DNA of 55,538 nucleotides from Oscillospiraceae bacterium (GTDB lineage: Bacteria; Bacillota; Clostridia; Oscillospirales; Oscillospiraceae). Within the stretch, counting starts at the first letter, position 1. The number at the start of each line of letters is the position of its first letter. Positions 23,812 to 45,690 of this stretch are shown here, one piece after another. The translations under genes and the position numbers were made by a program. The notes below the pieces were generated by a model, which was given only the letters and a program-made list of their open reading frames with translations, did no database searches and had not been told where the DNA came from. The stretch covers positions 1-55,538 of the forward strand of contig JAFRPC010000053.1 of NCBI GenBank assembly GCA_017429325.1, written 5' to 3'.

Positions 23812-25647
23812 CTATTTCCCCTTTCGCAGCTTCTCCGCCTGCTCCTTCGCCTTCCGGGCCTCCTTTGGCTTCCCCCAGGCGCTGTACAAGCTTTCCAGCC
23901 TGTCATAATGGTCCGGTTCCTCCGGCTCCAGGGCAATGGCCTGCTCCGTCTCCCGTAAGGCCTCCTCGTAACGTCCCATTTCCCGGAGGGTTACACCGAG
24001 GCTGGCATGATACCCCGCATTCTCCGGCCCCAGCTCTACGGCTCGCTGCTTCTCCGCCCGCGCCTCCTCATAGCGCTTCATCTCGTGGAGGGTCACGCCA
24101 AGCTGATCATGATAAAATGCATTCTCCGGCTCCAGCTCTACGGCTCGCTGCTTCTCTGCCCGCGCCTCCTCATAACGCTTCATCTCGTGGAGGGTCACGC
24201 CAAGCTGATTGTGATAAATTGCATTCTCCGGCTCCAACTCCACGGCACGCCGCTCTTCCGCCTCAGCTTCCTCATAGCGCTTCATCTCGTGGAGGGTCAC
24301 GCTAAGCTGATCGTGATACCATGCGTTCTCCGGCTCCAACTCCACGGCACGCCGCTCTTCCGCCTCAGCTTCCTCATAGCGCTCTATCTCGTGGAGGGTC
24401 GTGCTAAGCTGATCGTGATACCCTGCGTTCTCCGGCTCCTCCTTCACAAGCTGCCGCAACAGGGCTTCCGCCTCCGTGTAATTTTCCCGGTTGTAGGCTT
24501 GTATCGCCTTCCGATAGCGGGCACCGCGGCTTTCCGGGTCCGTGTCACCGGTCAGCCGCTCCACCGCCTGGCTCAACTCCTCTGTCTGTTTGATCAGCCC
24601 TGCGTCCGCCTGCTTTGTCTCCGAGCTCGTCTGTGCCGCTTCTTGAATGCCTGTTCCGGCCTTCGCAAATTCCACAGTCTTCTGTCGTATGGAAAGTGCC
24701 GCATTCATCTTCTCATTGATACGCCGGTAGTCCTCCTCCAGCGCCGTCTTCTGCTCTTCCAGCGTCGGCCAGGGCGGAACATTCAGGAAATACCCCAATC
24801 GAATAAAGAAAAGGTCGAAATCACAATCCTGCACGACCCAGCCACCGGCGGCGTTCATGAATCGCTCCGCCGCTGGGCTCAGCGCGGTCTTCTGATAGAG
24901 GGTCCAATAGGGGCAGCGCCATGTCCCGTTTCGGAATTTTCCGGCGTTCTCGTTAAGGAATTCCATCAAGCTTCTGTCATTCCCCGCATAGCCGATAAAA
25001 ATTGGGTTGTAGCTCTGGAATACCCGGTCCAGACAGTTTTTCCACTCCTGGGTAAGCTCCTCCGTCTCCTCCTCTGAGTTTTTGGGGTCCAGCAGCAGGT
25101 CCCGGTGTATCTTCATAATGTACGGTCGGGAGATCTGCGGACGATAATAGGGGATCAGGTACTCGTGGCCGATGACCATTGGAAGCTTCTTTTGATACCG
25201 TGCGATGGCATCCTCCGTCATGCGGTCAAAGTTGGTGGTGATCACCAGGTTGTGGAGGGTGTTGCAGAGGATGTCCGCCAGCGTCACATAGCCTGCGCCG
25301 GGATGCTTGCCTTGCATTTCTCTCTCCAGAAAAAAGTGTCCATCCCAGGGATCCTGGAATTTCCGGGAGAAATATGCCCCGTAGAAGCTGCTTTGGTTCT
25401 CTTTCGTGATCCCAAGCGCATCCTTCCATCTCTGATGCTCCTCTCCGTCTGCCTGGGACATCTCTTCCTCCCAGATCCTTACCAGCTCCTCCCCGGTTTT
25501 GATCCCGGAGGATTTGGATGCGCCCGCTCCGAGAACAAAGCAGTATCTCTTCGGATGCTCGGCCTCCTTTGGGTCCGCCTCCTTCGCCAGTGTTTTGGGG
25601 AACTCACTAAATTTCAGCATTCTATATTGTTTGATCTTCTTTTCCAT
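23812..25647 (-). CDS. SIR2-like NADase with C-terminal TPR array
   Basis: 611 residues. SIR2_2-type domain (about 33-290): NAD loop VLGAGASKSSG (38-48), catalytic-type Asn139 and Asp141 in ITTNFD, His181 in KIHRD, and GYAGND (219-224). A linker with a coiled segment follows, then TPR repeats from about 378; five 34-residue repeats (PENAxYHxQL / TLHEMKRYEEA) are nearly identical at DNA level (102-bp period), a sign of recent expansion. SIR2 domains fused to sensor regions deplete NAD in defence systems (Thoeris, SIR2-Ago, DSR). A role as a single-gene abortive-infection system is inferred. Its own promoter and GGGAGG ribosome site lie upstream. Confidence 0.85.
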   Translation of the reverse strand: MEKKIKQYRMLKFSEFPKTLAKEADPKEAEHPKRYCFVLGAGASKSSGIKTGEELVRIWEEEMSQADGEEHQRWKDALGITKENQSSFYGAYFSRKFQDPWDGHFFLEREMQGKHPGAGYVTLADILCNTLHNLVITTNFDRMTEDAIARYQKKLPMVIGHEYLIPYYRPQISRPYIMKIHRDLLLDPKNSEEETEELTQEWKNCLDRVFQSYNPIFIGYAGNDRSLMEFLNENAGKFRNGTWRCPYWTLYQKTALSPAAERFMNAAGGWVVQDCDFDLFFIRLGYFLNVPPWPTLEEQKTALEEDYRRINEKMNAALSIRQKTVEFAKAGTGIQEAAQTSSETKQADAGLIKQTEELSQAVERLTGDTDPESRGARYRKAIQAYNRENYTEAEALLRQLVKEEPENAGYHDQLSTTLHEIERYEEAEAEERRAVELEPENAWYHDQLSVTLHEMKRYEEAEAEERRAVELEPENAIYHNQLGVTLHEMKRYEEARAEKQRAVELEPENAFYHDQLGVTLHEMKRYEEARAEKQRAVELGPENAGYHASLGVTLREMGRYEEALRETEQAIALEPEEPDHYDRLESLYSAWGKPKEARKAKEQAEKLRKGK

Positions 25648-25740: not shown

Positions 25741-26682
25741 TGCTTTTCGACAGAAAGAGACACAACCGTACCTTTCAACAGAATGCGCTGGTTTTGTGCT
25801 GTCCGACAACGCAGCAAACAATTGATAAACCTGACAAGTTTCCTTCATACTTTACTTCTTACCTGGTACGTGCGGGGAATCGCGGACGGCTGCGAGCCGT
25901 CCCTACGAGCGGATCTGATGCCTGATCCCTGGTGCCTCCTCCGGGCGGGTGACGTTGGCCGGCAGATTGTCGGCGATACAGGCTGGGGACGGCAGTATGA
26001 CGCCGTAGGGGCGCTTATTAAGCTCCCGCGGATGCGGAGCATCCATCGTTTGCGTCAGCAAACGATCCAGCCGGGTTTCCGTTTTGGACCGGGCTGGATT
26101 TGCCTGCGGCAAATTGTCCGCCTGCGGCGGACCGGGCGCTCAATGAGCGCCCCTACAGCCGGAACGACGGGACCCGTGGCGCACACTGTGTGCAGCTACC
26201 GCGAGGCCACTTCTTACCTATTACTTCTTACTTCTTACCTTGTCCGTGCGGGAGACGTTGGTCGGCAGATTGCCGACGCTACAGGCGGGATAGCCTTCCC
26301 CTTGGGGGGAAGGTGGCATCGGGCATCCCCCGCAAGCCCGATGACGGATGAGGGGGCGTCCGTGCGAGGAACGGCGGGCGGCCAATGACCGCCCCTACAG
26401 GCGGGACAGCCTTCCCCTTGGGGGGAAGGTGGCATCGGGCGTCCCCCGCAAGCCCGATGACGGATGAGGGGGCGTCCGGGCGGGGAACGGCGGGCGGCCA
26501 ATGACCGCCCCTACAGGCGGGACAGCCTTCCCCTTGGGGGGAAGGTGGCATCGGGCGTCCCCCGCAAGCCCGATGACGGATGAGGGGGCGTCCGTGCGGG
26601 AGACGTTGGCCGGCAGATTGCCGGCGCTACAGGCGGGTCTGTTGCCCGTTGCCCGTTGCCTGTTGCCTGCTCCGGAAACCTC
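25741..26682. repeat. 1-kb gene-free repeat mosaic with 116-bp tandem array
   Basis: No gene is supported. From 25850 the region is built of repeat modules: TTACTTCTTACC runs (25850, 26212-26240), GGACGGCTGCGAGCCGTCC ending CTAC (25904), CGGCAGATTGTCGGC (25959), ATCGTTTGCGTCAGCAAACGAT (26046), and the pair TTTGCCTGCGGCAAA / GTCCGCCTGCGGCGGAC followed by GGGCGCTCAATGAGCGCCCCTAC (26098-26155). From 26281 to 26628 lies a tandem array of three 116-bp units, each with CCTTCCCCTTGGGGGGAAGG, a CATCGGGC...GCCCGATG stem and a terminal CTAC-footed palindrome; the last unit carries a different palindrome. GTTGCCC runs (26640-26670) end the mosaic. Confidence 0.85.
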
Positions 26683-28880: not shown

Positions 28881-31010
28881 ATGATCACCAAGAAGCAATA
28901 CCCCAACCACCACATCTTTGAGACCGAGATCGGCGGCCGCACCTTTACCGTCGAGACCGGCCGCGTGGCCGAGCTGGCCGACGCCGAGTGCATCTGCCGC
29001 TACGGCGACACCGTGGTCCTCACCGCCGTCACCTGCAGCCCCATCCCCAAGGCCGGCATGGACTACTTCCCCCTGACCATCGAGTTTGAAGAGCGCCTGT
29101 ACGGCGTGGGCCGCATCCCCGGCTCCTTCAACCGCCGCGAGGGCCGCCCCTCCGAGAAGGCCATCCTCACCATGCGTCTGATCGACCGCCCCATGCGCCC
29201 CTTCTTTGACGAGGAGCTCCGCAACGACGTGGTCGTCACCTGCACCTCTCTGGCCGTGGACCATGAGAACCCCGTGGAGGTCGTGGCCTCCCTGGGCGCC
29301 TTCATCGCCACCGCCTGCTCCAGTGTGCCCTGGAACGGCCCCATGGCTACCACCGAGGTCGCCTATCTGGACGGCGAATATCTCATCAACCCCTCCTGCG
29401 AGCAGCGGGCCGCGGCGCTGATGTTCTGCACCATCGCCTCCACCGCCGAGAAGGTCGTCATGATTGAGACCGAGGCCAAGGAGGTCCCCGAGGACATCCT
29501 GCTCAAGGGCATCGAGCTGGCCCATGAGACCAACAAGAAGATCGTGGCCTTCATCAACACCATCGTGGCCGCCATCGGCAAACCCAAGTTCAGCTTCGAG
29601 AAGGCCGCCGTCAACCACGAGCTGCTGGACGAGCTCTGCGCCTACGGTCTGGGCCAAATCGAGAACGCCCTGGACACCGACGACAAGAACGTCCGCGAGG
29701 AGCGGCTGACCGCCGCCCGGCTGGACTTCGCCGAGAAGTTTGCCGACAAGTACGAGGACTTCGAGGAGAACATTGAGGTCTGCCTCTACAAGATGCAGAA
29801 GAAGGTCGTCAAGAAGTGGCTGCTGGCCGGCAAGCGCGTGGACGGTCGCGGCATGGACGAGATCCGGCCCCTGGACGCCCAGGTCGCCGTCCTGCCCAGA
29901 GTTCACGGCTCCGGTCTCTTCACCAGAGGCCAGACCCAGGTCCTCTCCATCTGCACCCTGAACACCCTGGCCGCCAACCAGAAGCTGGACACCATCTTCC
30001 CCGAGACGGAAAAGCGCTATATCCACCACTACAATTTCCCCGCCTTCTCCACCGGCGAGGCCAGAGCCGCCCGCTCCACCTCCCGCCGCGAGATCGGCCA
30101 CGGCGCCCTGGCGGAAAAGGCCCTGGTGCCCGTGCTGCCCAGCGTGGACGAGTTCCCCTACTGCATCCGTGTGGTCTCTGAGGTCGTGAGCTCCAACGGC
30201 TCCACCTCCCAGGGCTCCATCTGCGGCTCCACCCTGGCGCTTATGGACGCTGGCGTGCCCATCAAGCGGGCCGTGGCCGGCATCTCCTGCGGCCTGATCT
30301 CCGACCAGGAGACTGGCGAATGGAGGACCTTCACCGACATCCAGGGCGTGGAGGACTTCCACGGCGAGATGGACTTCAAAGTGGCCGGTACCACCGAGGG
30401 CGTCACCGCCATCCAGATGGACCTGAAGAACGACGGCCTGACCATGGAGATCATCGCCGACGCGCTGGAGCGCTGCCGCAAGGCCCGGCTGGAGATCCTC
30501 AACGAGGTCATGCTGCCCTGCATCCCCGAGCCTCGTCCCGAGGTCTCCGAGTACGCCCCCAAGATGATCACCATCAAGATCGACGTGGACAAGATCCGCG
30601 AGGTCATCGGCAAGGGCGGCTCCACCATCCAGAAGATCGTGGCCGAGTCCGGCGCTGAGGTCAACGTCGAAGACGACGGCACCATCCACATCGCCTCTCC
30701 CGACGCCGCCTCCTGCGAAGCCGCCAAGCGGATGATCGAGGACATCTGCTTCGTCCCCGAGGTCGGCAAGCTGTACTACGGCAAGGTCGTCCGCATCATC
30801 CCCATCGGCGCCTTCGTGGAGCTGGCCCCCGGCAAGGACGGCATGGTCCACATCCGCGACCTGGAGTTCAAGCGCACCGAGAAGGTAGAAGACGTGCTGA
30901 ACATCGGCGACATGACCTGGGTCAAGGTCACGGAGATCGACGAAAAAGGCCGCGTCAACCTCAGCCGCAAGGAAGCCCTGAAGGAAATGAAGGAAAAGGG
31001 CCTCAACTAA
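28881..31010 (+). CDS. pnp: Polynucleotide phosphorylase
   Basis: 709-residue 3'-5' exoribonuclease of the RNA degradosome, using phosphate to degrade RNA. Seen: two RNase PH-like cores (the second with GRGMDEIRPLDAQV, LFTRGQTQVL, HHYNFPAFSTGEA and the SxGSTxGSICGSTLALMDAGVPIK-type active-site region), a KH domain around 577 (GKGGSTIQKI) and a C-terminal S1 domain (about 625-700, GKVVRIIPIGAFVEL ... GMVHIRDLE). GGAGG precedes the ATG. Forms the usual pair with rpsO and ends at a strong terminator. Confidence 0.97.
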   Translation: MITKKQYPNHHIFETEIGGRTFTVETGRVAELADAECICRYGDTVVLTAVTCSPIPKAGMDYFPLTIEFEERLYGVGRIPGSFNRREGRPSEKAILTMRLIDRPMRPFFDEELRNDVVVTCTSLAVDHENPVEVVASLGAFIATACSSVPWNGPMATTEVAYLDGEYLINPSCEQRAAALMFCTIASTAEKVVMIETEAKEVPEDILLKGIELAHETNKKIVAFINTIVAAIGKPKFSFEKAAVNHELLDELCAYGLGQIENALDTDDKNVREERLTAARLDFAEKFADKYEDFEENIEVCLYKMQKKVVKKWLLAGKRVDGRGMDEIRPLDAQVAVLPRVHGSGLFTRGQTQVLSICTLNTLAANQKLDTIFPETEKRYIHHYNFPAFSTGEARAARSTSRREIGHGALAEKALVPVLPSVDEFPYCIRVVSEVVSSNGSTSQGSICGSTLALMDAGVPIKRAVAGISCGLISDQETGEWRTFTDIQGVEDFHGEMDFKVAGTTEGVTAIQMDLKNDGLTMEIIADALERCRKARLEILNEVMLPCIPEPRPEVSEYAPKMITIKIDVDKIREVIGKGGSTIQKIVAESGAEVNVEDDGTIHIASPDAASCEAAKRMIEDICFVPEVGKLYYGKVVRIIPIGAFVELAPGKDGMVHIRDLEFKRTEKVEDVLNIGDMTWVKVTEIDEKGRVNLSRKEALKEMKEKGLN

Positions 31011-31020
31011 ACGAAACAAG

Positions 31021-31074
31021 GCGCTGCCTCAATCCAGCAAGAAACTGCTGCATTGAGGCAGCGCTTCCTTTATT
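31021..31074 (+). terminator. Terminator after pnp
   Basis: 13-bp stem GCGCTGCCTCAAT (31021-31033) / ATTGAGGCAGCGC (31052-31064), inner CAGCA...TGCTG pairing, then TTCCTTTATT. It isolates the lanthipeptide locus from pnp. Confidence 0.85.
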
Positions 31075-31117
31075 GTGTTCAAATATGTCTTTATCAACTT
31101 ATCTTTTCCATGTACTC

Positions 31118-31237
31118 TTGACTTTTCTTATTATTTGCTCTATTATTTTATTGTGGTGGCAGCAGCACGAGGCGGATGCGAACCCGCTGCGTGCTGCAAG
31201 ATCCCCTTTGGCTCTGCAGCGATCCGATCCTTGGAGG
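31118..31237 (+). promoter_or_regulatory. Promoter and structured leader of precursor 1
   Basis: TTGACT (31118-31123), 17 bp, TATTAT (31141-31146). The transcript begins with GTGGTGGCAGCAG (31153) and carries a stem GCAGCA (31162-31167)/TGCTGC (31192-31197) enclosing GCGG...CCGC around a GGATGCGAACCC loop, then a strictly conserved tail CAAGATCCCCTTTGGCTCTG and the ribosome site TTGGAGG (31231). Copies at 31785 and 32257 are nearly identical. Confidence 0.7.
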
Positions 31238-31243
31238 TATATT

Positions 31244-31381
31244 ATGTACGCAGACAAGACCGGCATGATCAACCTGGAAGAACTCGAAGTCAAGGCAGAC
31301 GAGGTCACTATCGTTTCCGGCGCCGCTGGAATGGCTTCCAGACGCACCAACTGCTGCCCGTTCCCTGTTGTGAAAGATTAA
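31244..31381 (+). CDS. Class II lanthipeptide precursor LanA1 (divergent)
   Basis: 45 residues. Leader of 27 residues shared with the other three precursors (MYADKTGMINLEELEVKADE, then a VSGA double-glycine-type site) and core AGMASRRTNCCPFPVVKD: one Ser, one Thr, two adjacent Cys. The core differs from the other three except for the TNCCP block, and the cleavage site is Gly-Ala rather than Gly-Gly. LanM would dehydrate Ser/Thr and add Cys to make lanthionines; LanT would cut after the site. Ribosome site TTGGAGG. Its transcript runs on into precursor 2, 46 bp downstream. Confidence 0.82.
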   Translation: MYADKTGMINLEELEVKADEVTIVSGAAGMASRRTNCCPFPVVKD

Positions 31382-31390
31382 TTATCTTTC
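31372..31390. other. AT-rich hairpin between precursors 1 and 2
   Basis: GAAAGAT (31372-31378) / ATCTTTC (31384-31390), loop TAATT, over the stop codon of precursor 1. Too weak to stop transcription by itself; may set mRNA ends. Confidence 0.4.
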
Positions 31391-31427
31391 GTTCCTCAAC
31401 AATCTCAAACATATTTGGAGGTAAATT

Positions 31428-31562
31428 ATGTACGCAGAGAAGACCGGCATGATCAACCTGGAAGAGCTCGAAGTGAAAGCCAACGAGGTGACGGAAGTTT
31501 CCGGCGGCTATTCCGCTGCTACGAAGTGCACCAACTGCTGCCCCGAGTGGCTGCTCCACTAA
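31428..31562 (+). CDS. Class II lanthipeptide precursor LanA2
   Basis: 44 residues: 27-residue leader ending EVSGG and core YSAATKCTNCCPEWLLH (one Ser, two Thr, three Cys). The leader matches precursors 3 and 4 at nearly every position. TTTGGAGG precedes the ATG. Unlike 1, 3 and 4 it has no promoter or structured leader of its own, so it is probably read from the precursor 1 promoter. The core shares KCTNCCP...WLLH with precursor 3. Confidence 0.85.
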   Translation: MYAEKTGMINLEELEVKANEVTEVSGGYSAATKCTNCCPEWLLH

Positions 31563-31576
31563 TCCCGTTCTCCGCA

Positions 31577-31607
31577 GTTGCCCGCATGGTTCGTCCATAC
31601 GGGTAGC
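31577..31607 (+). other. Conserved 3' hairpin after precursor 2
   Basis: GTTGCCCG pairs with CGGGTAGC (two G-T wobbles) and the inner TGG/CCA closes a TTCGT loop. Copies follow precursors 3 and 4 with compensating changes. No strong T-run follows. Confidence 0.5.
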
Positions 31608-31749
31608 GCTCAATAACCCCCCGTAACATTGAACCGAATTCGCAATTCCCCGCCACCATAACATTCTCATTCACCTCGGAAAGCTGCAGAGCCGCGTTGA
31701 TTGGAATCGTGTCAAATTATCCATTTCAGTTGAACTTTAACATGTGCGC

Positions 31750-31868
31750 TTGACTTTTTCTCCCAATCGCTATATGATGAAGCTGTGGTGGCAGCAGTAT
31801 GACGCGGATGCAAACCCGTGCGTGCTGCAAGATCCCCTTTGGCTCTGTAGCGATCCGATACATATTTG
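31750..31868 (+). promoter_or_regulatory. Promoter and structured leader of precursor 3
   Basis: TTGACT (31750-31755), 17 bp, TATGAT (31773-31778). Leader from 31785 with GCAGCA (31791-31796)/TGCTGC (31823-31828), inner GCGG/CCGT (G-T closing pair) around GGATGCAAACCC, and the same CAAGATCCCCTTTGGCTCTG tail. Ribosome site TTTGGAGG at 31866. 31608-31749 otherwise holds only the conserved CCACCATAACATTCTCATTC segment. Confidence 0.7.
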
Positions 31869-31879
31869 GAGGTATTATT

Positions 31880-32014
31880 ATGTACGCAGAGAAGACCGGC
31901 ATGATCAACCTGGAAGAGCTCGAAGTAAAGGCCAACGAGATTACCGAAGTTTCCGGCGGCTACACCTGCTGCACGAAGTGCACCTATTGCTGCCCTGATT
32001 GGCTGCTCCACTAA
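31880..32014 (+). CDS. Class II lanthipeptide precursor LanA3
   Basis: 44 residues: leader identical to precursor 2 except Val to Ile, GG cleavage site, core YTCCTKCTYCCPDWLLH. The core has three Thr and five Cys, so at least two Cys cannot be in lanthionine rings and would stay free or form a disulfide. Own promoter and structured leader. Ribosome site TTTGGAGG. Lies in a cassette duplicated with precursor 4 (472-bp offset). Confidence 0.86.
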   Translation: MYAEKTGMINLEELEVKANEITEVSGGYTCCTKCTYCCPDWLLH

Positions 32015-32028
32015 TTCCATTCTCAGCA

Positions 32029-32059
32029 GTTACCCGCGTGGTTCGTCCATACGGGTAAC
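32029..32059 (+). other. Conserved 3' hairpin after precursor 3
   Basis: GTTACCCG/CGGGTAAC perfect 8-bp stem extended by GTGG/CCAT around TTCGT, followed by TTTC. The strongest of the three copies. Confidence 0.5.
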
Positions 32060-32221
32060 TTTCAATAACCCCCCGTAACGTTGAACTTATTTCGCAATCC
32101 CCCAGCCACCATAACATTCTCATTCACCCCGGAAAGCTACAGAGCCGCGTTGGATGAAAAAGCATCCTGTGATCCATTCCTGTTTGGTATAATGTTATCC
32201 ATTCCTGTCTGGCGTATGCGC

Positions 32222-32340
32222 TTGACTTTTTCCCTGAATCGCTATATGATTGTCCTGTGGTGGCAGCAGTACGACGCGGATGCAAATCCGTGTGTGCTGC
32301 AAGATCCCCTTTGGCTCTGTAGCGATCCGATACATATTTG
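32222..32340 (+). promoter_or_regulatory. Promoter and structured leader of precursor 4
   Basis: TTGACT (32222-32227), 17 bp, TATGAT (32245-32250). Leader from 32257 with GCAGCA/TGCTGC, inner GCGG/CCGT extended by an A-T pair, the loop GGATGCAAATCC, and the conserved tail. It differs from the precursor 3 copy by only a few bases, all in or next to the stem. Confidence 0.7.
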
Positions 32341-32351
32341 GAGGTATTATT

Positions 32352-32483
32352 ATGTACGCAGAGAAAACCGGCATGATCAACCTGGACGAGCTCGAAGTAA
32401 AGGCCAACGAGATTACCGAAGTTTCCGGCGGCCACTCCTGCTGGACGAACTGCACCAATTGCTGCCCCAGCTGGTTGAAATAA
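32352..32483 (+). CDS. Class II lanthipeptide precursor LanA4
   Basis: 43 residues: shared leader (one Glu to Asp change) with GG site and core HSCWTNCTNCCPSWLK (two Ser, two Thr, four Cys). It is the last precursor before lanM and ends at a hairpin. Own promoter and structured leader; ribosome site TTTGGAGG. With numbers of Ser/Thr and Cys balanced, up to four rings are possible on paper. Confidence 0.86.
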   Translation: MYAEKTGMINLDELEVKANEITEVSGGHSCWTNCTNCCPSWLK

Positions 32484-32497
32484 TCCCATATTCAAGA

Positions 32498-32527
32498 ATT
32501 GTCCGTTTGTCCACACATACGGGCAAC
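32498..32527 (+). other. Conserved 3' hairpin after precursor 4
   Basis: TTGTCCG (32499-32505) pairs with CGGGCAA (32520-32526), one G-T wobble. Corresponds to the hairpins at 31577 and 32029. The segment to 32615 repeats the CCACCATAACATTCTCATTC block. Confidence 0.45.
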
Positions 32528-32715
32528 TCTCAATAACCCCCACGTAAAGATGAACTGATTTCGCAATCCCCCAGCCACCATAACATTCTCATTCACCTCG
32601 GAGCGCTACAGAGCCGCGTGACAGACACACTTGGAAGCGAAGCATACGCCCGCCGCACGATCCCCCGCGCCGGGCGTGCTTCCGCTTTTCTATCCATTGA
32701 TACAGGTGAGATATT

Positions 32716-35583
32716 ATGCAACAATTCGCAAATCCGGAAATCGCACAGACGCTGCTGACGCGGTGGAAGGACTATTTCGGCGCCGCCTTCCGCCAGCCCC
32801 TGACGCAATACCTGGTCAGGATGGAGGAGACCCTCTCGGAGTTTGCCGACCGTATGCCCGACATTCGCTTGGAAACAAACACGATTCTGACTTCCGCAGG
32901 AAGCACGATGATGAACACCTTGTTCACGTTGTGCTCCCGCACTTTTTTGGACTTGCTGCTGCGGGTCCAGGATACGCTTCCGGGCGACAGCCCCGAAGCG
33001 CGGTACCAGGCCTTTGTGGAAACGCAGCTTCTTCCGAATCAAGCGGTCTTTTATTCGCCGGAGACCGAACTGGGTCGTCTGGTCGAGCAGCGGATCCGGT
33101 ACAGTGTGAAGGCGTTCCGGGAGTTTCTGGAACGCTTCGACTGTGACCGCCCGCTGCTTCGGGAGGCGCTGGGCATTGCGGTCCAAAGCATCGACGACAT
33201 TCAATTTTCCTCAGGAGACACCCACAATTCCGGGAAAACAGTCTTTTTGATCCAAGTCAACGGGGGAGAACGTCTGCTCTATAAGCCGCACTCCACAGCC
33301 AATGACGAAATCCTGTCCCGCCTGTTGCAATGGGTAAATGAGAACGCCCGCCTGCGTCTTCCGCTGCGTCATGCCCGAACCTGCTCGCGGGGGGCTTACG
33401 GCTGGCAGGAATTTATACCGTACAAGGCCTGCGAGACCCAGACAGAGGCGGAAAATTATATGTACCGCCTGGGCTGTCTGCTGTTTTTCTCTTTCCTGAC
33501 CTGCTGCAATGACCTCCACTTGGAAAATATCATCGCCGCAGGAGAGCATCCGTTCCTGATAGACCTCGAAACCATGTGCGTGAATCAGTACGGCTTCGGC
33601 GGTTACAGCTTGGAAGCTGCCACAAGCTGGGACCTTTTTCTTGCAAGCTCTGTTTTTTCCTCCCTGCTTCTGCCTACAAACTTCTCGCGGGAGAAAGCGG
33701 CGAACCGGATGGATGTCAGCGGCATTCTTGCCGGTGTGAGCGGCAAACTCCAAAGCGACGAGAAGTTCTATCGAATTATCAACGAGGGAACCGATCAGAT
33801 CTGCTACACGCTTCAGCCCATGTCCGCGCAGGACAGCAAGTTCCACAACATTGCGGTATTGAACGGTCAGCGCCTTCACGCCGGGGATTATCTGGAGTTT
33901 ATCACAGAGGGATTCCGGGACGTATATACCTTCCTGCTGGAGAACAAGGAAGCCTATCGCGCCCTTATGGAGGACGGCCTGTTCGACGCAGGCGTCTATC
34001 GGCTGGTTCTGCGCAACACATCGCTGTATGAAAAGTACCTCCTGGCCTCCTATCATCCCGCCTATCTTCCGGACCGCCTTGCGGTGTTTCAGCGGCTCAA
34101 GGGAACAGGCGATTATGTCAATCCGAGCCACCGGAAACTGGTGGAAATGGAGATTCGGCAGCTGCTGAACGACGATATCCCGTATTTTTACAGCAAGTTC
34201 CGCTCCCTCGATCTGTATGGCCCGGACGACTGCTGCGTCGGCTTCTTTTCAAAAAGCACGCAGGAGCAGCTTCTGGAAAAGCTTGAGCAGCTCAGTGAAG
34301 CAGATCTGTACCGTCAGCTCTACTGCATTCGTACCTCCATTGCCCGCTCCAGCCTGGTGGATCGGCGCTTTCAGGCATATCCGGTGCCGGAAGCGGTATT
34401 TGCCGCTTCGACCCTGACCGAAAAGGCGAACGCCCTGGCGGATTGGATCGAGGGCCTGCGGGAACGCTTCCACCGAATCGACACAAAGCCCCAGGAGGAA
34501 CCCGCGTATTTCTGCATTTTTGGAACGTTACAGGGCAACAGCATCGAATTGGAGCCGCCCGTTTTATACAATGGACTTGGCTCGTTCCTGTTTTACGTCC
34601 AATATTACGCCGCCCGCTGGGGCGTATCAGCAGGCGAGGCCCTTGCACGGCTGGAGCGTGCAGGACGTCTGCCAAGCTTCCCCAAAGCAGACGCAGACCG
34701 CCCCACCGCAGAAATCGGTTTATTTGACGGCCTTGGTTCTTCTCTCTATCTGTACGGTCAGTTGTATCTGTACAGCGGACAGGAACAGTACAAAACCTAT
34801 GTGAATGCTCTCTGTGACAGGCTTCTGTCTTCCGACAGCGCCGAGAACGATGTGATCTCCGGCTATGCAGGGGTCCTGATCGCGGCGTTCAGACTCTATG
34901 AGAAGCTGCCGGAGCTGAAAAAATTAAAGACGCTCGCCGCGTTTTGCGGCGAACGTCTGTATCAACGCTGGGAACAAAAGCAGCTTCGTCATATGACAGG
35001 CTTTGCCCACGGCTACGCCGGGATCAGTACCGCCCTGATGATGGCAGGGAAGCTCACGGCAAAGGACGCCTATTTTGACGCGGGAATGGACCTGGTCCGG
35101 CGGGAGGACGCGCTTTATGACGCCGACCTCGGCGCCTGGAAGATCCCGGATCGAGAAGGCAGCGTCATGAATGCCTGGTGTTACGGCGCCCCCGGTCTGC
35201 TCGTGGCGCGGATGCTGGCACTGCGCTGTGGAAGGGCCAGCGACCGGGCGCTGCTGGAGCAAGATCTGGCAATTGCCCTGGAACTGACGAAACGGGAGTT
35301 GAAAAAGGACCTGTGGCTGCCGATCCTTTGTCACGGCCTTCCCGGAAACTTGGAGATCCTGCGCTGGTATGCCCGTGAGACGGGGGACACAAGCCTGGAG
35401 CCCATTGTGGCCGAGGGCGATGTGCGCCTGCTGCAGCACATTCAAAAAGAGGGGCTTCTCTGTGAGTTATCCGCAAAGGTCCTGAATATTTCCTTTATGG
35501 CCGGCCTTTCCGGTCTTGGGTACTACCTTCTGGAGATGACAAACCCGAATATCCCGTCTGTCTTAGCGCTGGAATTGTTTTGA
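32716..35583 (+). CDS. lanM: Class II lanthipeptide synthetase LanM
   Basis: 955 residues, normal for LanM. N-terminal DUF4135 dehydratase (about 90-560): LLYKPHS, WQEFIPYK, and the kinase-like NDLHLENII...FLIDLETM block (about 265-287) that phosphorylates Ser/Thr and then eliminates. C-terminal LanC-like cyclase (about 640-950): GFAHGYAGIS, zinc ligands Cys822 (WCYGAPG) and Cys872-His873 (CHG), AGLSGLGYYLLEM end. All ligands for an active enzyme are present. AGGTGAG precedes the ATG. It would modify the four precursors just upstream. DNA is less GC-rich than the housekeeping genes around it. Confidence 0.96.
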   Translation: MQQFANPEIAQTLLTRWKDYFGAAFRQPLTQYLVRMEETLSEFADRMPDIRLETNTILTSAGSTMMNTLFTLCSRTFLDLLLRVQDTLPGDSPEARYQAFVETQLLPNQAVFYSPETELGRLVEQRIRYSVKAFREFLERFDCDRPLLREALGIAVQSIDDIQFSSGDTHNSGKTVFLIQVNGGERLLYKPHSTANDEILSRLLQWVNENARLRLPLRHARTCSRGAYGWQEFIPYKACETQTEAENYMYRLGCLLFFSFLTCCNDLHLENIIAAGEHPFLIDLETMCVNQYGFGGYSLEAATSWDLFLASSVFSSLLLPTNFSREKAANRMDVSGILAGVSGKLQSDEKFYRIINEGTDQICYTLQPMSAQDSKFHNIAVLNGQRLHAGDYLEFITEGFRDVYTFLLENKEAYRALMEDGLFDAGVYRLVLRNTSLYEKYLLASYHPAYLPDRLAVFQRLKGTGDYVNPSHRKLVEMEIRQLLNDDIPYFYSKFRSLDLYGPDDCCVGFFSKSTQEQLLEKLEQLSEADLYRQLYCIRTSIARSSLVDRRFQAYPVPEAVFAASTLTEKANALADWIEGLRERFHRIDTKPQEEPAYFCIFGTLQGNSIELEPPVLYNGLGSFLFYVQYYAARWGVSAGEALARLERAGRLPSFPKADADRPTAEIGLFDGLGSSLYLYGQLYLYSGQEQYKTYVNALCDRLLSSDSAENDVISGYAGVLIAAFRLYEKLPELKKLKTLAAFCGERLYQRWEQKQLRHMTGFAHGYAGISTALMMAGKLTAKDAYFDAGMDLVRREDALYDADLGAWKIPDREGSVMNAWCYGAPGLLVARMLALRCGRASDRALLEQDLAIALELTKRELKKDLWLPILCHGLPGNLEILRWYARETGDTSLEPIVAEGDVRLLQHIQKEGLLCELSAKVLNISFMAGLSGLGYYLLEMTNPNIPSVLALELF

Positions 35584-35664
35584 ACGGTGTCCGCAGCACC
35601 CGGACTGCGGCAGGCCGAAGGGAAGCCATACAGCGTTCAGACCAAAGAAAGAAATGCGAAGAAT

Positions 35665-37782
35665 ATGAAAAGAGTTCCGATTGTAACACAATTTCAGAAT
35701 ACAGAGTGCGGCCTGTGCTGTGCGGCCATGATTTCCCGCTATTACGGGCACTATGTTTCCCTTGAGGAGCTGCGCGAATACCAGCAGCCGGGACGCGACG
35801 GCATCTCCGGCCAGCAGCTTCACGCGCTTTTGCAATGGCTGAACTTGGACTGTAAAATTTACCGATGCAAGCTGGAGCATCTTCCCGCCATCCCCTTGCC
35901 TGCCATCGCTTTTTGGGAGAATTCCCATTATGTGGTAATCGAAAGCGTAAAAAAGGACAGGGTCGTGCTGGTCAATCCGGGCAGCGGAAGAGAGATTTTG
36001 ACGCTTGAGGAATTTCAGCAGTCCTTCTCCGGCCTAATCTTTTGCCCGAAACCCAACGAGCAATTTACCCGAAAAAAGCCGGGGAGATCCGTGTGGCTGA
36101 ATTACCTTTACCTCCTTGCCAACAACAAATATCTGATCCTTGCGACCTTGCTGCTCAGCCTGCTGTCTTATGTGATCTCAGCAGTCGTTCCCATGATGGT
36201 CCAGGTTATCATTGACTCGCCGGGGATCGGCGACAACTACCTGCTGATCGGCGGTCTGGCAGCGCTGCTCGGCTACGGTGTGACCCACGCGCTGAGTTCC
36301 CTTTTGAATGTGTTCATCAAGTCCAGGATCTATCGCTCCTTCTTCTCTCTATGTATGAAGAAGCTCTCAAAATTTGAGTTTCAGTACTTCCTGCTTCGCT
36401 CCCTCGGCGGCATTTCCTACAATTTGGACTGCATTGATACGGTGAATGACAGCTATAGCGTTGTCATGGTGAATTCCCTGGTATCCGCCGGCGCCGTCCT
36501 GATCCTTTCCGCCTTATTCGCCTTTCGCTCGCTTTCCCTCTTTCTGGTCTTTGGGCTGTTTCTGGCACTCTCTTTTCTCCTTCTGCGGCTGTCCAACAAT
36601 CACGTGATCCGTTTGAACCAGTCGGAAATCAGCAGCAAAGCCAAGCTGAAGATAAAACAGTTCGAGTTTATCAGCTCCATCGGCGAACTGAAAACCTTTG
36701 GAATGGAAGACCTGTTCTATTCTGAGTGGGAAACCGCGTTTTTGCATTCCGTCAAAAAGAATCTGCAAAAAAGCCGCGGAGAAGCCCTGTATTCCTCCTT
36801 GTCCGCCGCCCTGTCCCTGGTCCTGCCCCTGATCATTCTGCTTGCCTCGTTTTATTTCGTTTCCAACGGACTTCTGACCATGGGTACCGCCATTTCCCTC
36901 TATTCTCTGGCCACAATCATCTCCTCGTTTGCAATCAATTTCTTCTCTTCTGTCAATTCCTTTCGCACCATGAACAATATGACGGAGCGAATCAAGGACC
37001 TGATCATGCAGCCGGCGGAGAAAAACGGCGATAAAATCATTGACGACATTGACCGGATCGAATTGCAGCATGTTTCCTTCCGCTATGACAAGCACGCGCC
37101 CTTTGTGATTCAGGACATCTCTCTGGAAATTAAAAAGGGCCAAAAGGTCGCCATCGTCGGCGCTTCCGGCAGCGGAAAATCGACGATCGCAAAGCTTTTG
37201 GTCAAGATGTTTGAGCCCACCGAGGGTACCATCCTGTTCGACGGCGTCCCGGCAGAAGCGTTAGAGAATCAGGCGCTTCGCCATGTCATCGGCTGCCTCT
37301 CCCAAGAGGGCAAGCTCTTCAACGCATCCATCTTCCGAAATATCGTCATGCTTGCCGCCAACTATACCACGGACGATTTCAATGAAGCCTGCAAAAAGGC
37401 GCAAATCTATGACGACATCATGAAACTGCCCATGAAAGCGGAGACAATGGTATCCGACACCGGTTCCGATGTTTCCGGGGGGCAAAAGCAGCGGATCCTT
37501 CTGGCGAGAGCGCTGATGGCAGACCCGAAAATCCTGCTGCTCGACGAAGCGACAAGCGCTCTGGATTCCGTTACGGAACACGCCATTTTTGAAGCGCTGA
37601 ATAAGCTCGGAAAAACCTTGATCGTAATCGCGCATCGCCTGTCTACGGTAATAGACGCCGACCATATTTATGTGCTGAAAGACGGACGGCTCGTAGAAGA
37701 AGGCACCCACGAGCAGCTCATGGAACGCAGGGGAGAATACTACTCCTTGTATCAAAGAGGCTCGAATGAAATGGAAAGTTGA
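35665..37782 (+). CDS. lanT: LanT: C39 peptidase-ABC exporter for the lanthipeptides
   Basis: 705 residues. N-terminal C39 peptidase (1-125): catalytic Cys15 in TECGLCC, His88 in NSHYVVIE and Asn104 in VNPGSG (the third position is Asn, often Asp); it cuts after GG/GA of the leaders. Then about six membrane segments (about 140-415) and an ABC ATPase: Walker A GASGSGKST near 499, SGGQKQR signature, Walker B ILLLDEATSALD, and the IAHRLSTV His switch. ATG 35665 gives the canonical N-terminus; the GTG at 35587 would add 26 unrelated residues. The ribosome site is weak, so coupling to lanM (81 bp upstream) is possible. Confidence 0.95.
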   Translation: MKRVPIVTQFQNTECGLCCAAMISRYYGHYVSLEELREYQQPGRDGISGQQLHALLQWLNLDCKIYRCKLEHLPAIPLPAIAFWENSHYVVIESVKKDRVVLVNPGSGREILTLEEFQQSFSGLIFCPKPNEQFTRKKPGRSVWLNYLYLLANNKYLILATLLLSLLSYVISAVVPMMVQVIIDSPGIGDNYLLIGGLAALLGYGVTHALSSLLNVFIKSRIYRSFFSLCMKKLSKFEFQYFLLRSLGGISYNLDCIDTVNDSYSVVMVNSLVSAGAVLILSALFAFRSLSLFLVFGLFLALSFLLLRLSNNHVIRLNQSEISSKAKLKIKQFEFISSIGELKTFGMEDLFYSEWETAFLHSVKKNLQKSRGEALYSSLSAALSLVLPLIILLASFYFVSNGLLTMGTAISLYSLATIISSFAINFFSSVNSFRTMNNMTERIKDLIMQPAEKNGDKIIDDIDRIELQHVSFRYDKHAPFVIQDISLEIKKGQKVAIVGASGSGKSTIAKLLVKMFEPTEGTILFDGVPAEALENQALRHVIGCLSQEGKLFNASIFRNIVMLAANYTTDDFNEACKKAQIYDDIMKLPMKAETMVSDTGSDVSGGQKQRILLARALMADPKILLLDEATSALDSVTEHAIFEALNKLGKTLIVIAHRLSTVIDADHIYVLKDGRLVEEGTHEQLMERRGEYYSLYQRGSNEMES

Positions 37783-38148: not shown

Positions 38149-38580
38149 TCAAAAATACAGCTCTGTTGCCAGGTTGCCGTAGGTGTAGTAGCAGACGGCT
38201 TTTTTCAGGAAGGCCTCGTCTACGCCGAAGTAGTCGGCCAGATCCCAGAGCTCGGTGTGGCCCTCGGCCACGGCCTCGTCCAGCTCCTCCACGGGGATCA
38301 GAGTCCGGACAGCGTACTTGTCGGCGCGGTTCTCGTGGAAGCGGCGGATGTCCGCGGGGCTCCAGCGGTTGTAGAAGCTGCCCGTGACGCAGTGGCCCAG
38401 CTCGTGGGCCAGCCGGACCCGCAGATCCGTCTCCGTATGGCGGCTGGGCAGGTCCAGACCGATGGCGCAGCTTCCGTCCTCGTCCATGACGCTCAGAGAG
38501 CCCACCCGCGGCAGCGGGAAATGCAGGACCGGGATATTCAGTTTTTCCGCTCGGCGGTACAGTTCGATCAGGTTGGTCAT
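38149..38580 (-). CDS. ImmA/IrrE-type metallopeptidase
   Basis: 143 residues. Zinc protease signature HELGH (59-63) with a downstream Glu/Asn pair (FHENRADKYA), as in ImmA/IrrE/DUF955 proteins that cleave XRE-type repressors, for example in ICEBs1 and phage-like elements. The ATG at 38580 begins a complete family-length protein. It lies just behind the XRE regulator gene on the same strand, separated by a repeat, which fits an anti-repressor role (inference). Confidence 0.88.
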   Translation of the reverse strand: MTNLIELYRRAEKLNIPVLHFPLPRVGSLSVMDEDGSCAIGLDLPSRHTETDLRVRLAHELGHCVTGSFYNRWSPADIRRFHENRADKYAVRTLIPVEELDEAVAEGHTELWDLADYFGVDEAFLKKAVCYYTYGNLATELYF

Positions 38581-38599
38581 GGGTATTCCTTCTTTTTCA

Positions 38600-38700
38600 A
38601 CGGCAGCGTGTCGAAACACCACCTCATCCGCCCCAGTGTGCGCACTGGGGCACCTTCCCCTCAAGGGGAAGGCTTTTGGTCGGCAGATTGCCGGCGCTAC
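38600..38700. repeat. Repeat between the ImmA and XRE genes
   Basis: CACCTCATCC, GCCCCAGTGTGCGCACTGGGGC, CCTTCCCCTCAAGGGGAAGG and CGGCAGATTGCCG with CTAC at 38697-38700. On the minus strand that CTAC is GTAG, and its TAG is the stop codon of the XRE gene. Confidence 0.8.
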
Positions 38701-39050
38701 AGTTTCTTGTTCCTCGCCTTGACGAAGGCTGCGAACTGCTTGACCTCCTCGTACATCTCGTCGGTCACGTCCTGCTCGCCGCCGAAGAGGGCAAACTTGA
38801 TGTCCTCGTCCCGGATGGAGCCCTGGGGGACGGCCACCGGGGTGTTCTTCACTTCGTCGTCGATGAGATAGGAGGGCGGGACCTGGAAGATCTGGGCCAT
38901 GGCCTTGATCTTTCCGGCGGGGATGTCGGTGACGCGGCCGCACTCCCATTTGCTGACGGCGTTCTTCTGGACGCCCAGCATCTCTCCCAGCTCCGTCTGG
39001 GTCAGCTTCGCCTGCTTCCGCAGGGTCTTGATTTTTTCCGCGATGGTCAT
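38697..39050 (-). CDS. XRE-family repressor
   Basis: 117 residues. N-terminal helix-turn-helix (about 6-60): LRKQAKLTQTELGEMLGVQKNAVSKWECG, the classic XRE motif; then a short C-terminal domain of acidic character. Paired with an ImmA-type peptidase, it is the probable repressor of the phage-derived unit starting at 39259. A palindromic operator and divergent promoters lie just upstream. The TAG stop is supplied by a REP-like foot. Confidence 0.9.
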   Translation of the reverse strand: MTIAEKIKTLRKQAKLTQTELGEMLGVQKNAVSKWECGRVTDIPAGKIKAMAQIFQVPPSYLIDDEVKNTPVAVPQGSIRDEDIKFALFGGEQDVTDEMYEEVKQFAAFVKARNKKL

Positions 39051-39153
39051 GGTGATACCCCTTTCATATCATTTTTACGACTGCGTTTCGCCGTAGCGGC
39101 GCACAGCGTGCGCCACGGCGTCTGCGCGGCAGCATTCCACTTGGAGTATCTTC

Positions 39154-39220
39154 ATGTTAGCATATTTTTTCAAAAAAGTCAAGATTGTGTCTTGACAAAA
39201 TGAAACTATTGTGGTATAAT
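39154..39220. promoter_or_regulatory. Divergent promoters with shared operator
   Basis: Rightward: TTGACA (39192-39197), 17 bp, TATAAT (39215-39220), perfect consensus. Leftward: TTGACT (39182-39177), 17 bp, TAACAT (39159-39154). Both -35 boxes lie in one palindrome, GTCAAGA-ttgtg-TCTTGAC (39178-39196), the expected binding site of the XRE repressor. Confidence 0.8.
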
Positions 39221-39258
39221 CCAGGTATCTTAAGAAAATGATTGAAGGAGGTGCGGTC

Positions 39259-39459
39259 ATGCGAAGCAATCTTTTGATGAACTGTCTTTGGTACGAGGAC
39301 ATTTCCCCGGAGGAGCTGGCAAACGTGCTGGAAATCACGCCGGAAGCCCTGTTCCAGAAGATTTTCCAGGAGAAGGACTTCACGCTGGGGGAGATTCGGC
39401 GGATCACCGGTCTGCTGGGTCTGACGAACGACGAAGTGGACGAAATTTTTTTCAAGTAA
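39259..39459 (+). CDS. Small Cro/HTH-like protein
   Basis: 66 residues, helical, with a stretch EDISPEELANVLEITPEALFQKIF and FTLGEIRRITGLLGLTNDEVDEIFF that looks like a compact XRE-type helix-turn-helix found in phage Cro-like proteins. It is transcribed away from the repressor from a consensus promoter. AAGGAGG is 8 bp before ATG 39259. A Cro- or excision-regulator-type role is inferred from position. Confidence 0.78.
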   Translation: MRSNLLMNCLWYEDISPEELANVLEITPEALFQKIFQEKDFTLGEIRRITGLLGLTNDEVDEIFFK

Positions 39460-39602
39460 AAGTATCTTCGCAAGATTATTAAAGGCAAAGCAGCCCGCCG
39501 CATCCAAGCACAGGGACAGCTTATCACGTCAGCTGTCCCAAAAAACGGACCGAAACGCGCAGACCGTCCCGCGGCGGGCCGCCCATTGAAAAAGGAGGAA
39601 GC

Positions 39603-41483
39603 ATGAAGCAAGCAAATGAACCGCCCATCGGGCGGGAGCAGCTCCGGGAGGCCCTGGAGCTCCTGCGGCGCTACAAGGCCGGAAAGGCCAACTTAGAGCG
39701 GCGCATCGTGGAGAACGAGGAGTTCTGGAAGCTCCGCCACTGGGAGCACATTCCCGAGCAGGGGACCACGCCCCTGAAAACCAAGAGCGCCTGGCTGGTG
39801 AACGTGCTGCTCTCCAAGCACGCCGACGCCATGGACGCCTATCCCGAGCCCGCCTTCCTGCCCCGGGCGGCGGACGACGAGGCCGAGGCCCGGCTCCTGT
39901 CCCAGGTGGTGCCGGTGATCTTGGCCCAGAACGACTTCGCCGCCACCTGGTCCGACAACTGGTGGAAAAAGCTGAAGGCCGGCGTGGCCTTCTACGGGGT
40001 CTTCTGGGATCGGGACAAGCTGAACGGCTTAGGAGACGTGTCCATCGTCCGGGTGGACCCCCTGAACCTCTACTGGGAGCCCGGCGTCACGGAGCTCCAG
40101 CGCAGCCGCAATCTCTTCCACGTGGAGCTGGCGGACAACGAGAGCCTGACGGAGCGCTATCCCCAGCTGGAGGGCCAGCTCCGGGGCGGCGGCATGTCCT
40201 TCAGCCGCTACCTTTACGACGACAGCGTGGACACCTCCCGCAGCACGCCGGTCATCGACTGGTACTACAAGAAACGGGAGGGCCGCCGGACGATTCTCCA
40301 TTACGTCAAATTTGTGGGCGAGACCGTTCTGTTTTCCACGGAAAACGAGGAAAGTAAGAAGGAAGAAGTAAGAAGTAAAATGGTTTCCGATGGCGAAGGC
40401 GATAATTCTTACTTCTTACCTCTTACTTCTTCCTTGCCCGAACGTGGTCTGTACGACCACGGACAGTACCCCTTCTTCGCGGACGTGCTCTTCCCGGAGG
40501 AGGGCACGCCGGCGGGCTTTGGCTACGTGGACCTCTGCAAGGACGCCCAGCGGCAAATCGACCTGATGAACAACGCCATCGTGGCAAACTGCGTGGCCGC
40601 TGCCACGCCCCGCTGGCTGAAGCGGGGCGACGACGGGGTGAACGAGGCCGAATACGCCGACTGGACCCGGCCCTTTGTCCACGTCCAGGGCTCCATTGAG
40701 GAAAACGCCCTGCGGCAGATCACCGTGGCCCCCCTCTCCGGGAACTATCTGAACATCCTGGCCTCCAAGATCAACGAAATCAAGGAGACCTCCGGCAACC
40801 GGGACGTGAACAACGGCGGCGTGGGCGGCGGCGTCACGGCTGCCTCGGCCATCGCGGCCATGCAGGAGCAGAGCGGCAAGCTGAGCCGGGACCAGATCCA
40901 GAGCGCCTATCGCTGCTTCCGGCAGGTGGTGGGCTGCGTCATCTCCCTGATCCGCCAGTTCTATGACACGCCCCGCCAGCTTCGGGTCCTGGGTCCCGAG
41001 GGCGAGACGGCCTATCTCAGCTTCGACAACCGGATGCTCCGGGCAGGGGAGGCCCCGGAGCTGGACATCGAGGTCTCGGCCCAGAAGCAGAGCAGCTACA
41101 ACAAGCTCAGCTACAACGAAATGGCCCTGCAATTCTTCCAGTTGGGCTTCTTCCGCCCGGAGCTGGCGGACCAGGCTCTGGCGGCCCTGGAGATGATGGA
41201 CTTCAAGGGTAAGGAGGCCCTGCGCCGCCGGGTGGCGGAGAACGGCGGGCTTCAGGCGCGGCTGGAGCAGACGGAGGCCCGGCTCCAATCCCTGCTGGAC
41301 CTGCTGGGGCCTGCGCAGAGCCCCGAGAGTCCGACCCGTCAGCCCCTCCACGCGGACCGGCCCCGGAAGCAGGCGCCCCGGCTCAAGACCCACAGCTACG
41401 ACGTCATCGGCAGCGAGCTGCGGAAGAACAACATCGCCGAGCGGGCCCGCGCCCGCGCCGCCGCGGCAACGCAGCCGAGGTAA
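39603..41483 (+). CDS. Phage portal protein
   Basis: 626 residues, placed first in the head gene row. Recognisable features: an N-terminal helical part (WKLRHWEHI, AWLVNVLLSKHADAMDAYPEP), an anti-parallel wing (VRVDPLNLYWEPG), and QRQIDLMNNAIVANCVAAATPRW followed by a helical stem and crown region (TAASAIAAMQEQSGK), as in portals of P22-like or podovirus type. Residues about 250-278 are encoded by a repeat element (40349-40437) inserted in frame. AAAGGAGG precedes the ATG. The portal is the DNA gate and docks TerL. Assigned by pattern and context, not by search. Confidence 0.75.
   Translation: MKQANEPPIGREQLREALELLRRYKAGKANLERRIVENEEFWKLRHWEHIPEQGTTPLKTKSAWLVNVLLSKHADAMDAYPEPAFLPRAADDEAEARLLSQVVPVILAQNDFAATWSDNWWKKLKAGVAFYGVFWDRDKLNGLGDVSIVRVDPLNLYWEPGVTELQRSRNLFHVELADNESLTERYPQLEGQLRGGGMSFSRYLYDDSVDTSRSTPVIDWYYKKREGRRTILHYVKFVGETVLFSTENEESKKEEVRSKMVSDGEGDNSYFLPLTSSLPERGLYDHGQYPFFADVLFPEEGTPAGFGYVDLCKDAQRQIDLMNNAIVANCVAAATPRWLKRGDDGVNEAEYADWTRPFVHVQGSIEENALRQITVAPLSGNYLNILASKINEIKETSGNRDVNNGGVGGGVTAASAIAAMQEQSGKLSRDQIQSAYRCFRQVVGCVISLIRQFYDTPRQLRVLGPEGETAYLSFDNRMLRAGEAPELDIEVSAQKQSSYNKLSYNEMALQFFQLGFFRPELADQALAALEMMDFKGKEALRRRVAENGGLQARLEQTEARLQSLLDLLGPAQSPESPTRQPLHADRPRKQAPRLKTHSYDVIGSELRKNNIAERARARAAAATQPR
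40349..40437. repeat. MITE-like element inserted in frame in the portal gene
   Basis: Left arm of GTAAGAAG/GAAGAAGT runs (40349-40380), 25-bp centre with GGTTTCCGATGGCGAAGGCG, right arm of CTTACTTCTTACC runs (40406-40433). Arms are about 28-bp imperfect inverted repeats. It adds about 29 codons without a stop. The same TTACTTCTTACC runs occur at 26217 and 52245. Confidence 0.85.
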
Positions 41484-41508
41484 AACAGAAAGGAGAAAAT
41501 GAACTGAA

Positions 41509-41754: not shown

Positions 41755-41767
41755 GGAGGGGACGCGG

Positions 41768-42773: not shown

Positions 42774-42789
42774 GAAGAGAGGAACACCC

Positions 42790-43647: not shown

Positions 43648-43691
43648 GACGCGCAAATCGAGATAAGTCGAGGTCACGTATCGACCCATGC

Positions 43692-43766: not shown

Positions 43767-43824
43767 GCAATAACCCGACAAATCCCGATTTGCGGAACAA
43801 ACATCACCAGAAAGGAGAACCTAC

Positions 43825-44310: not shown

Positions 44311-44342
44311 GTTGAAAACGAATCACTGAAAGGAGACCTAAC

Positions 44343-45686: not shown

Positions 45687-45690
45687 CCTT

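Follow-up and report, generated by a model that had tools for sequence, protein, structure and literature searches.

A predicted long-range pairing of mRNA ends encloses the precursor genes of related class II lanthipeptide loci

Introduction

In ribosomal RNA precursors, complementary 5' and 3' flanks form processing stalks, which place a double-stranded site around the functional RNA. In lanthipeptide operons, precursor is required in large excess over enzyme, and the ratio is often credited to a leaky terminator.

Pairing between the two ends is also described for individual bacterial mRNAs. A study on Staphylococcus aureus reports that the 3' UTR of icaR mRNA pairs with its own 5' UTR, which covers the Shine–Dalgarno (SD) sequence, blocks initiation and yields a double-stranded substrate of RNase III (PMC3868564). 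In the type I toxin mRNAs hok and aapA, a long-distance 5'–3' interaction is reported to sequester the SD sequence; trimming of the 3' end activates the message and an antisense RNA is present (PMC6733600). For Bacillus subtilis, a third study states that RNase III cuts mRNAs in intramolecular duplexes of 10–36 bp and that paired cuts can lie as far as 505 nt apart (PMC11780869). We found no description of such pairing in lanthipeptide or lantibiotic clusters in the open-licence literature, which does not by itself establish its absence in print.

Here we compare with these systems a lanthipeptide locus within a stretch of 55,538 nt (the window) from an Oscillospiraceae bacterium, the genome of which is assembled in 68 contigs (72.8% complete, 3.9% contaminated).

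Results

Downstream of pnp, the window carries four small precursor genes, lanM and the gene of a C39-peptidase exporter, all on the plus strand; judged by this gene content, the locus is a class II lanthipeptide cluster. The predicted LanM (class II lanthipeptide synthetase, 955 aa; 32716..35583) scores 580.5 bits against TIGR03897 (cut-off: 304) and contains DUF4135 and LANC_like domains, and the predicted ABC exporter (35587..37782) combines Peptidase_C39 with ABC_tran. Precursors 1 (45 aa; 31244..31381), 2 (44 aa; 31428..31562), 3 (44 aa; 31880..32014) and 4 (43 aa; 32352..32483) have GG-like leader peptides and Ser/Thr/Cys cores; their products, known from sequence only, are putative, and none of the four matched a Pfam or NCBIfam family. 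Precursor 2 is without a leader of its own and sits behind precursor 1.

Directly after pnp and just before the promoter of the first leader, 31014–31071 can form a hairpin with 26-nt arms (85% complementary) that is probably the pnp terminator. On the other side of the cluster, directly after the exporter, 38149–49901 contains an HTH and IrrE-like pair and, after it, phage genes for portal, capsid and terminase, by which it is classed as a prophage or remnant. Elsewhere in the window, 23812–25647 (minus strand) encodes a SIR2-like domain fused to a TPR array, matching PADLOC models of SIR2-associated defence proteins. A non-coding repeat array at 26242–26637 contains a 164-nt stretch in three direct copies (spacing: 116 nt), with more partial copies from 25935.

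The initial annotation had described near-identical leaders from 31153, 31785 and 32257, ahead of precursors 1, 3 and 4 and more alike than the cores that they precede. Repeat analysis bore this out: identity was 72/80 (1 versus 3), 71/80 (1 versus 4) and 76/79 (3 versus 4) among leaders as against 39/67, 42/66 and 45/60 among cores (global identity), and in the 100 nt upstream it was below that of the leaders (64/103, 60/105 and 68/108). Between copies 3 and 4, the stretch of SD sequence plus leader peptide is equally conserved (89/91). The length difference noted in copy 1 is one extra base, located in the hairpin, and the tail CAAGATCCCCTTTGGCTCTG, described as fixed, is identical across the three leaders. 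A promoter had been placed ahead of each leader, and a consensus scan agreed, with a −35/−10 pair and a 17-nt spacer on the plus strand at 31118..31146 (unit 1; TTGACT, TATTAT), 31750..31778 (unit 3; TTGACT, TATGAT) and 32222..32250 (unit 4; TTGACT, TATGAT). Seven promoter-like sites were counted in the stretch versus 2.2 expected from shuffles; minus-strand sites occur at 31408–31381 and 31293–31265 (consensus scan).

The 5' hairpins of the three leaders, delimited by folds and pair counts at 31162..31197, 31794..31828 and 32266..32300 (plus strand), are less conserved as a structure than had been proposed. The stem GCAGCA/TGCTGC, taken to be invariant, is found in copy 1 only, copies 3 and 4 having GCAGTA with a U.G pair. 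That changes keep pairing was an overstatement: none of 11 hairpin pairs is changed on both sides, and three are changed on one side only. Compared with shuffled sequences, the leaders fold only moderately better (z=−0.93, −1.19 and −2.20).

A Rfam search of 31000–32720 gave no match above a significance of E 0.15, all matches lying below the gathering score, and over the whole window only a T-box (14823–15050), distant from the leaders, was returned. This T-box leader is exactly at the gathering score (93 bits) and precedes an ORF of 934 aa (15106–17910). We built the covariance model of the leaders (R1) that the initial annotation had suggested and searched it over 23 genus genomes and nine sources. 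The three strong matches were all in the window and none was at another precursor locus; the precursor regions of the related loci described below (L019–L022) gave no match. Weak matches (E≤1, the best at 0.0012) occurred in 10 of the 22 remaining genomes of the genus, none of them on contigs with precursor loci, and the two that were examined (L068 and L069) lie in long open frames. When the leader was searched as DNA in 300 family genomes, two short weak matches besides the own genome were judged on reading to be chance.

The initial annotation had read the leader hairpin itself as a ligand-sensing or protein-binding element. We consider this hardly probable: loop and stem are conserved among the three tandem copies beyond the surrounding DNA, but the hairpin sequence is missing from the other precursor loci, Rfam at the gathering score yields nothing except the distant T-box, and no pair is changed on both sides. 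The data support an RNA element that is conserved together with the precursors. They do not support a riboswitch, sRNA target or attenuator contained in the leader alone, given the lack of a Rfam match, the 0/11 double changes and the confinement of the hairpin to the window locus. Common to all the precursor loci is a segment of the leader tail, B. Its partner lies in a 3' element which, for most copies, is outside the region that the initial annotation had considered.

The initial annotation had missed that each leader tail has its complement in a repeat (families D5 and D6) on the downstream side of the precursors. D5, located downstream of precursors 2, 3 and 4, contains the reverse complement of the leader tail, and a genome search with the leader returned a minus-strand match (32598–32615) that is the D5 site. 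Segment B of the leader, GGCTCTG[C/T]AGC, can pair with segment B' of D5, GCT[A/G]CAGAGCC; at the variable position, C is matched by G in unit 1 and T by A in units 3 and 4. After an interruption of two bases (one mismatch in unit 4), TCCGA can extend the helix with TCGGA (4/5 pairs in unit 3). In unit 1, which encloses precursors 1 and 2, B1 (GGCTCTGCAGC; 31210..31220, TCCGA at 31223–31227) is predicted to pair with B'1 (GCTGCAGAGCC; 31683..31693, TCGGA at 31676–31680) with a probability of 1.0. Complementarity and folds place the pair of unit 3 at B3 (GGCTCTGTAGC; 31841..31851, TCCGA at 31854–31858) and B'3 (GCTACAGAGCC; 32136..32146), and that of unit 4 at B4 (GGCTCTGTAGCG; 32313..32324, TCCGA at 32326–32330) and B'4 (CGCTACAGAGCC; 32604..32615, TCGGA at 32598–32602), all on the plus strand.

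Short hairpins follow the stop codons of the last enclosed precursors. The one after precursor 3 (32029..32059, plus strand; GTTACCCG/CGGGTAAC) was found by eye and in a fold of the 3' region alone. Its counterparts lie at 31577–31607 after precursor 2 (GTTGCCCG/CGGGTAGC; by eye) and at 32499–32526 after precursor 4 (TTGTCCG/CGGGCAA). Their stems differ yet still pair, and they are seen in the 3'-region folds of units 3 and 4, not of unit 1.

A LanM search revealed a second locus in the own genome (L019) and one in each of three genomes of the same genus (L020 in G307, L021 in G300 and L022 in G302), so that LanM loci occur in 4 of 23 genus genomes, the own included. The precursor alignment pointed to the same four genomes, with 17 precursor genes. 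At L019 (contig C6, 4310–7713), a second class II locus whose LanM is 43% identical to that of the window, two precursors lie within one B/B' pair. Across loci, LanM identity to the window is 42–43%; it is about 51% between L022 and the L019–L021 group, 71% between L019 and L020/L021, and 97% between L020 and L021. We therefore count about four lineages (window, L019, L020/L021 and L022). Beyond the genus, no comparable locus turned up: LanM at E≤1e-80 was found in the own genome alone among 394 order genomes and in the own genome and G302 among 400 family genomes. The precursor alignment returned, from 391 class genomes, the own genome and two weak partial matches (E: 0.007 and 0.009), and no match from viral contigs. 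A LanM search of wider genome contigs gave four remote loci (26–29% identity).

At all five loci, two in the own genome and three in genomes of the same genus, a 5'/3' pair encloses the precursor genes. The helix, of 12–18 bp, was found in eight of nine units, and 0 to 2 of 1000 dinucleotide shuffles were as good. The pairs are GGGCTCTGTAGCTGGA with TCCAGCTACAGGGCCT at L019, ATCGGCTCTGTAGCTGG with CCAGCTACAGAGTCGAT at L020 and L021 (four precursors enclosed), AAAGCGGTTCCGTAGTTG with CAACTACGGAACCGTTTT in L022 unit 1 and TCCGTAGTTGGA with TCCAACTACGGA in L022 unit 3. L022 unit 2 has no helix (824/1000 shuffles as good) despite a B'-like sequence after its gene. In this second module (6151–6170 and 6400–6480), the B'-like 3' element is without a matching B and the leader has a terminator-like hairpin; a local hairpin could arise between the B' of this module and the B that follows. 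Whether one, two or four precursor genes are enclosed, B' comes behind the last of them and ahead of the next promoter or lanM. Outside coding and ribosome-site DNA, the stretches alignable between loci are, among the matches listed, essentially B and B'; a second comparison again gave B and B', plus some unrelated matches of 12–13 bases.

As controls, lanA leaders of other class II loci were compared with the gap between lanA and lanM, and the 5'/3' pair was absent in 6/6 tested (54 to 417 of 500 shuffles as good). Long 3' regions were trimmed at 260 nt in these controls, the end of the 3' region of L012 was assumed, and L010, L011 and L013, in which the filter left no small ORF, were not included. 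A loose B pattern in the own genome (33 forward and 23 reverse matches versus 6 and 8 with a backward control) hit mostly CAGCAG-type sequence and was uninformative.

The predicted helix energies range from −24.5 to −35.5 kcal/mol. From 4000 random segment pairs of the same DNA, 163 reach −24.5, 97 reach −25.7, 35 reach −27.7 and 4 reach −32.6 kcal/mol, and 3 of 121 ORF flanks reach −25.7 kcal/mol, one of these −34.9. The complementarity of any single unit is thus not extreme for GC-rich DNA here, and one unit alone would be unconvincing. The covariation alignment (A2) holds six of the eight helix units; it excludes L020, a near copy of L021, L022 unit 3, whose helix is in a shifted register, and the helix-less L022 unit 2. 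In it, 94% of cells are paired and 6 of 14 pairs are changed on both sides, which none of 500 shuffles reached, although these shuffles ignore kinship and the six rows are few and stem from few independent lineages. In slid registers, pairing falls to 24–46%. The core of 11 pairs is 100% paired with four pairs changed on both sides (1/500 shuffles). L022 unit 1 accounts for three of the six double changes in the full alignment, and window units 1 and 4 and L019 for one each (in L019, U.G to G.U). Taken together, position, recurrence and covariation make a convincing case for the predicted pairing.

In RNAfold predictions for seven of the nine units (L020 and L022 unit 2 left out), the helix had a mean probability of 0.95–1.0 in all seven, at nearly every 3' end tried. 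Of the nine 3' ends tried for unit 3, two bring it down to 0.50 and 0.73, and there a competing pairing of the leader start GTGGTGGC with GCCACCA wins. This competitor, which we rejected as a candidate element, is restricted to the window. When the 1538-nt region of the window was folded as a whole, B1 paired with its own B'1; in L022, folded as one transcript of 1064 nt, B1 paired with the last of three B' copies, not the first. In our view the B/B' helix itself very probably forms, its pairing being well supported by sequence; what it does is a matter of inference.

The inverted-repeat geometry around each module and the tandem arrangement of the locus would also fit a role at the level of DNA, in which the repeats flank an invertible or exchangeable precursor cassette or serve as paired operators for a regulator. 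Yet all 17 precursor genes are co-directional with their lanM, none being inverted, and no recombinase or transposase was found among 27 neighbouring proteins scanned with Pfam (at L022, ORF translations only were inspected). Inversion is therefore unlikely. The non-Watson–Crick positions of the helix on the sense strand (four G.U, no A.C) also speak against a role at the level of DNA, although weakly, since L020 and L021 share one event and the limits were chosen to allow G.U. We give the DNA-level role as a whole very little probability.

Since B' of any window unit could also base-pair with the B segments of its sister units, an RNA derived from the 3' UTR might act in trans on the leaders of all units and couple their expression. 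Against this, B1 prefers its own B'1 in the 1538-nt fold, the single-module loci L019, L020 and L021 keep the pair with no sister unit there, and the matching of C-to-T with G-to-A changes within units (window unit 1 versus 3 and 4) favours the own partner. Trans action thus appears very unlikely.

Fold-back of the 3' segment on the leader could alter ribosome access, as in icaR, hok and aapA, with full-length and 3'-trimmed messages translated differently. The geometry is the same, a 5' leader with the 3' UTR of a small-peptide mRNA; in the window, about 9 nt separate the extended helix (TCCGA) from the SD sequence, and in some units predicted SD openness with and without B' differs (0.53 versus 0.01 in L022 unit 1, 0.62 versus 0.26 in window unit 3). 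The core helix, however, leaves the SD sequence uncovered, ending 12–32 nt upstream of it in 7/7 units measured, and B' raises predicted openness in four of seven units and lowers it in three. Because of this distance and the inconstant direction, SD sequestration as in icaR or aapA is unsupported, and we consider translational control by fold-back unlikely.

Attenuation before lanM is another conceivable role: B' would pair with B on emerging from the polymerase, and a terminator or pause hairpin would limit readthrough into lanM or the next unit and so tune the ratio of precursor to synthetase. B' does sit before lanM or the next promoter, and a T-run follows it in L019 (CCTTTTTC) and L022 (CCGTTTTC and CCGTTTTG), but none follows it in the window units (GCGTTG, GCGTGA) or in L020/L021 (TCGATTCC), so that termination is not general. 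Moreover, the loops of 238–882 nt far exceed those of known terminators, and the window has a separate terminator-like element between B'4 and lanM, a strong predicted hairpin followed by TTTTC (32633..32690, plus strand), which a terminator scan with a loop limit of 8 nt had missed. We regard attenuation as decidedly improbable.

Discussion

Constant across loci is that the precursor module lies within the pair and lanM beyond it. We propose that a long-range RNA panhandle closes each precursor mRNA and acts in its processing and stability, probably as a signal for RNase III or for decay by which this mRNA is set apart from lanM. The proposal is tentative, with something close to an even chance of being right. 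A module would consist of promoter, 5' hairpin, B, one to four precursor genes and B', giving one mRNA each; that B and B' share a transcript is inferred from the promoter-like sites. The 5' leader and the 3' end of this mRNA would pair through the helix of 12–18 bp, closing the precursor genes in a loop of 238–882 nt. In the cell, the helix might be a double-stranded site for cutting by RNase III or might shield the module from decay, and the outcome would be an abundant precursor mRNA kept apart from the lanM message, which would be made by readthrough. Protection of the new 5' end may fall to the 5' hairpins present in the leaders of the window, L019, L020 and L021.

We favour the processing and stability panhandle because the pair encloses the module without lanM, because RNase III of B. 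subtilis provides a precedent and because an RNase III gene is present. The helices of the eight units fall within the duplex range given for B. subtilis; six of the seven loops measured are at most 462 nt, and the loop of L020/L021 (882 nt) is beyond the 505 nt stated there. An RNase III gene above cut-off was detected in three of the four genomes searched, the own and two of three relatives; none was detected in G302 (85% complete). Besides its main match, G307 has a weaker RNase III-like one (contig C70, 10766–11497; 109 bits) that is below cut-off.

In this lanthipeptide family, the modular panhandle may be the unit of expression: the end-to-end helix of each module would fold the tandem precursor genes of a common operon and cut each module out as a closed mRNA of its own, which would set the ratio of precursor to enzyme and leave new modules regulated from the start. 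This wider view is possible, if short of an even chance. Such a conserved helix per precursor module would give a different and testable answer to the question of the precursor-to-enzyme ratio. It would also be a sequence-supported case of long-range mRNA pairing kept through deep divergence (LanM identity down to 42%). A caution also follows: what keeps a 'leader' conserved may be a pairing partner that lies hundreds of bases from it.

Like the processing stalks of ribosomal RNA, the complementary flanks enclose an RNA; here, however, this RNA is an mRNA that codes for protein, and the helix is far shorter. The likeness to icaR is the complementarity of 5' and 3' UTR that makes a double-stranded site, whereas here the helix lies upstream of the SD sequence, surrounds one to four small genes and is repeated per module in one operon. 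With hok and aapA, the loci share a small-peptide mRNA folded by pairing of its ends and conserved between loci, but no SD sequestration is seen here. The B. subtilis targets of RNase III resemble the panhandles in duplex length (10–36 bp there, 12–18 bp here) and in spans of hundreds of nucleotides in one mRNA; cleavage was mapped there, in unrelated mRNAs, whereas the helices here are predicted, with one locus at a span of 882 nt (PMC11780869). The loci share LanM, exporter and GG-like leader peptides with other class II lanthipeptide clusters, and differ from the six tested, all of which are without the 5'/3' pair. The proposed precursor panhandle would thus be a variant form of the known 5'–3' pairing of mRNA.
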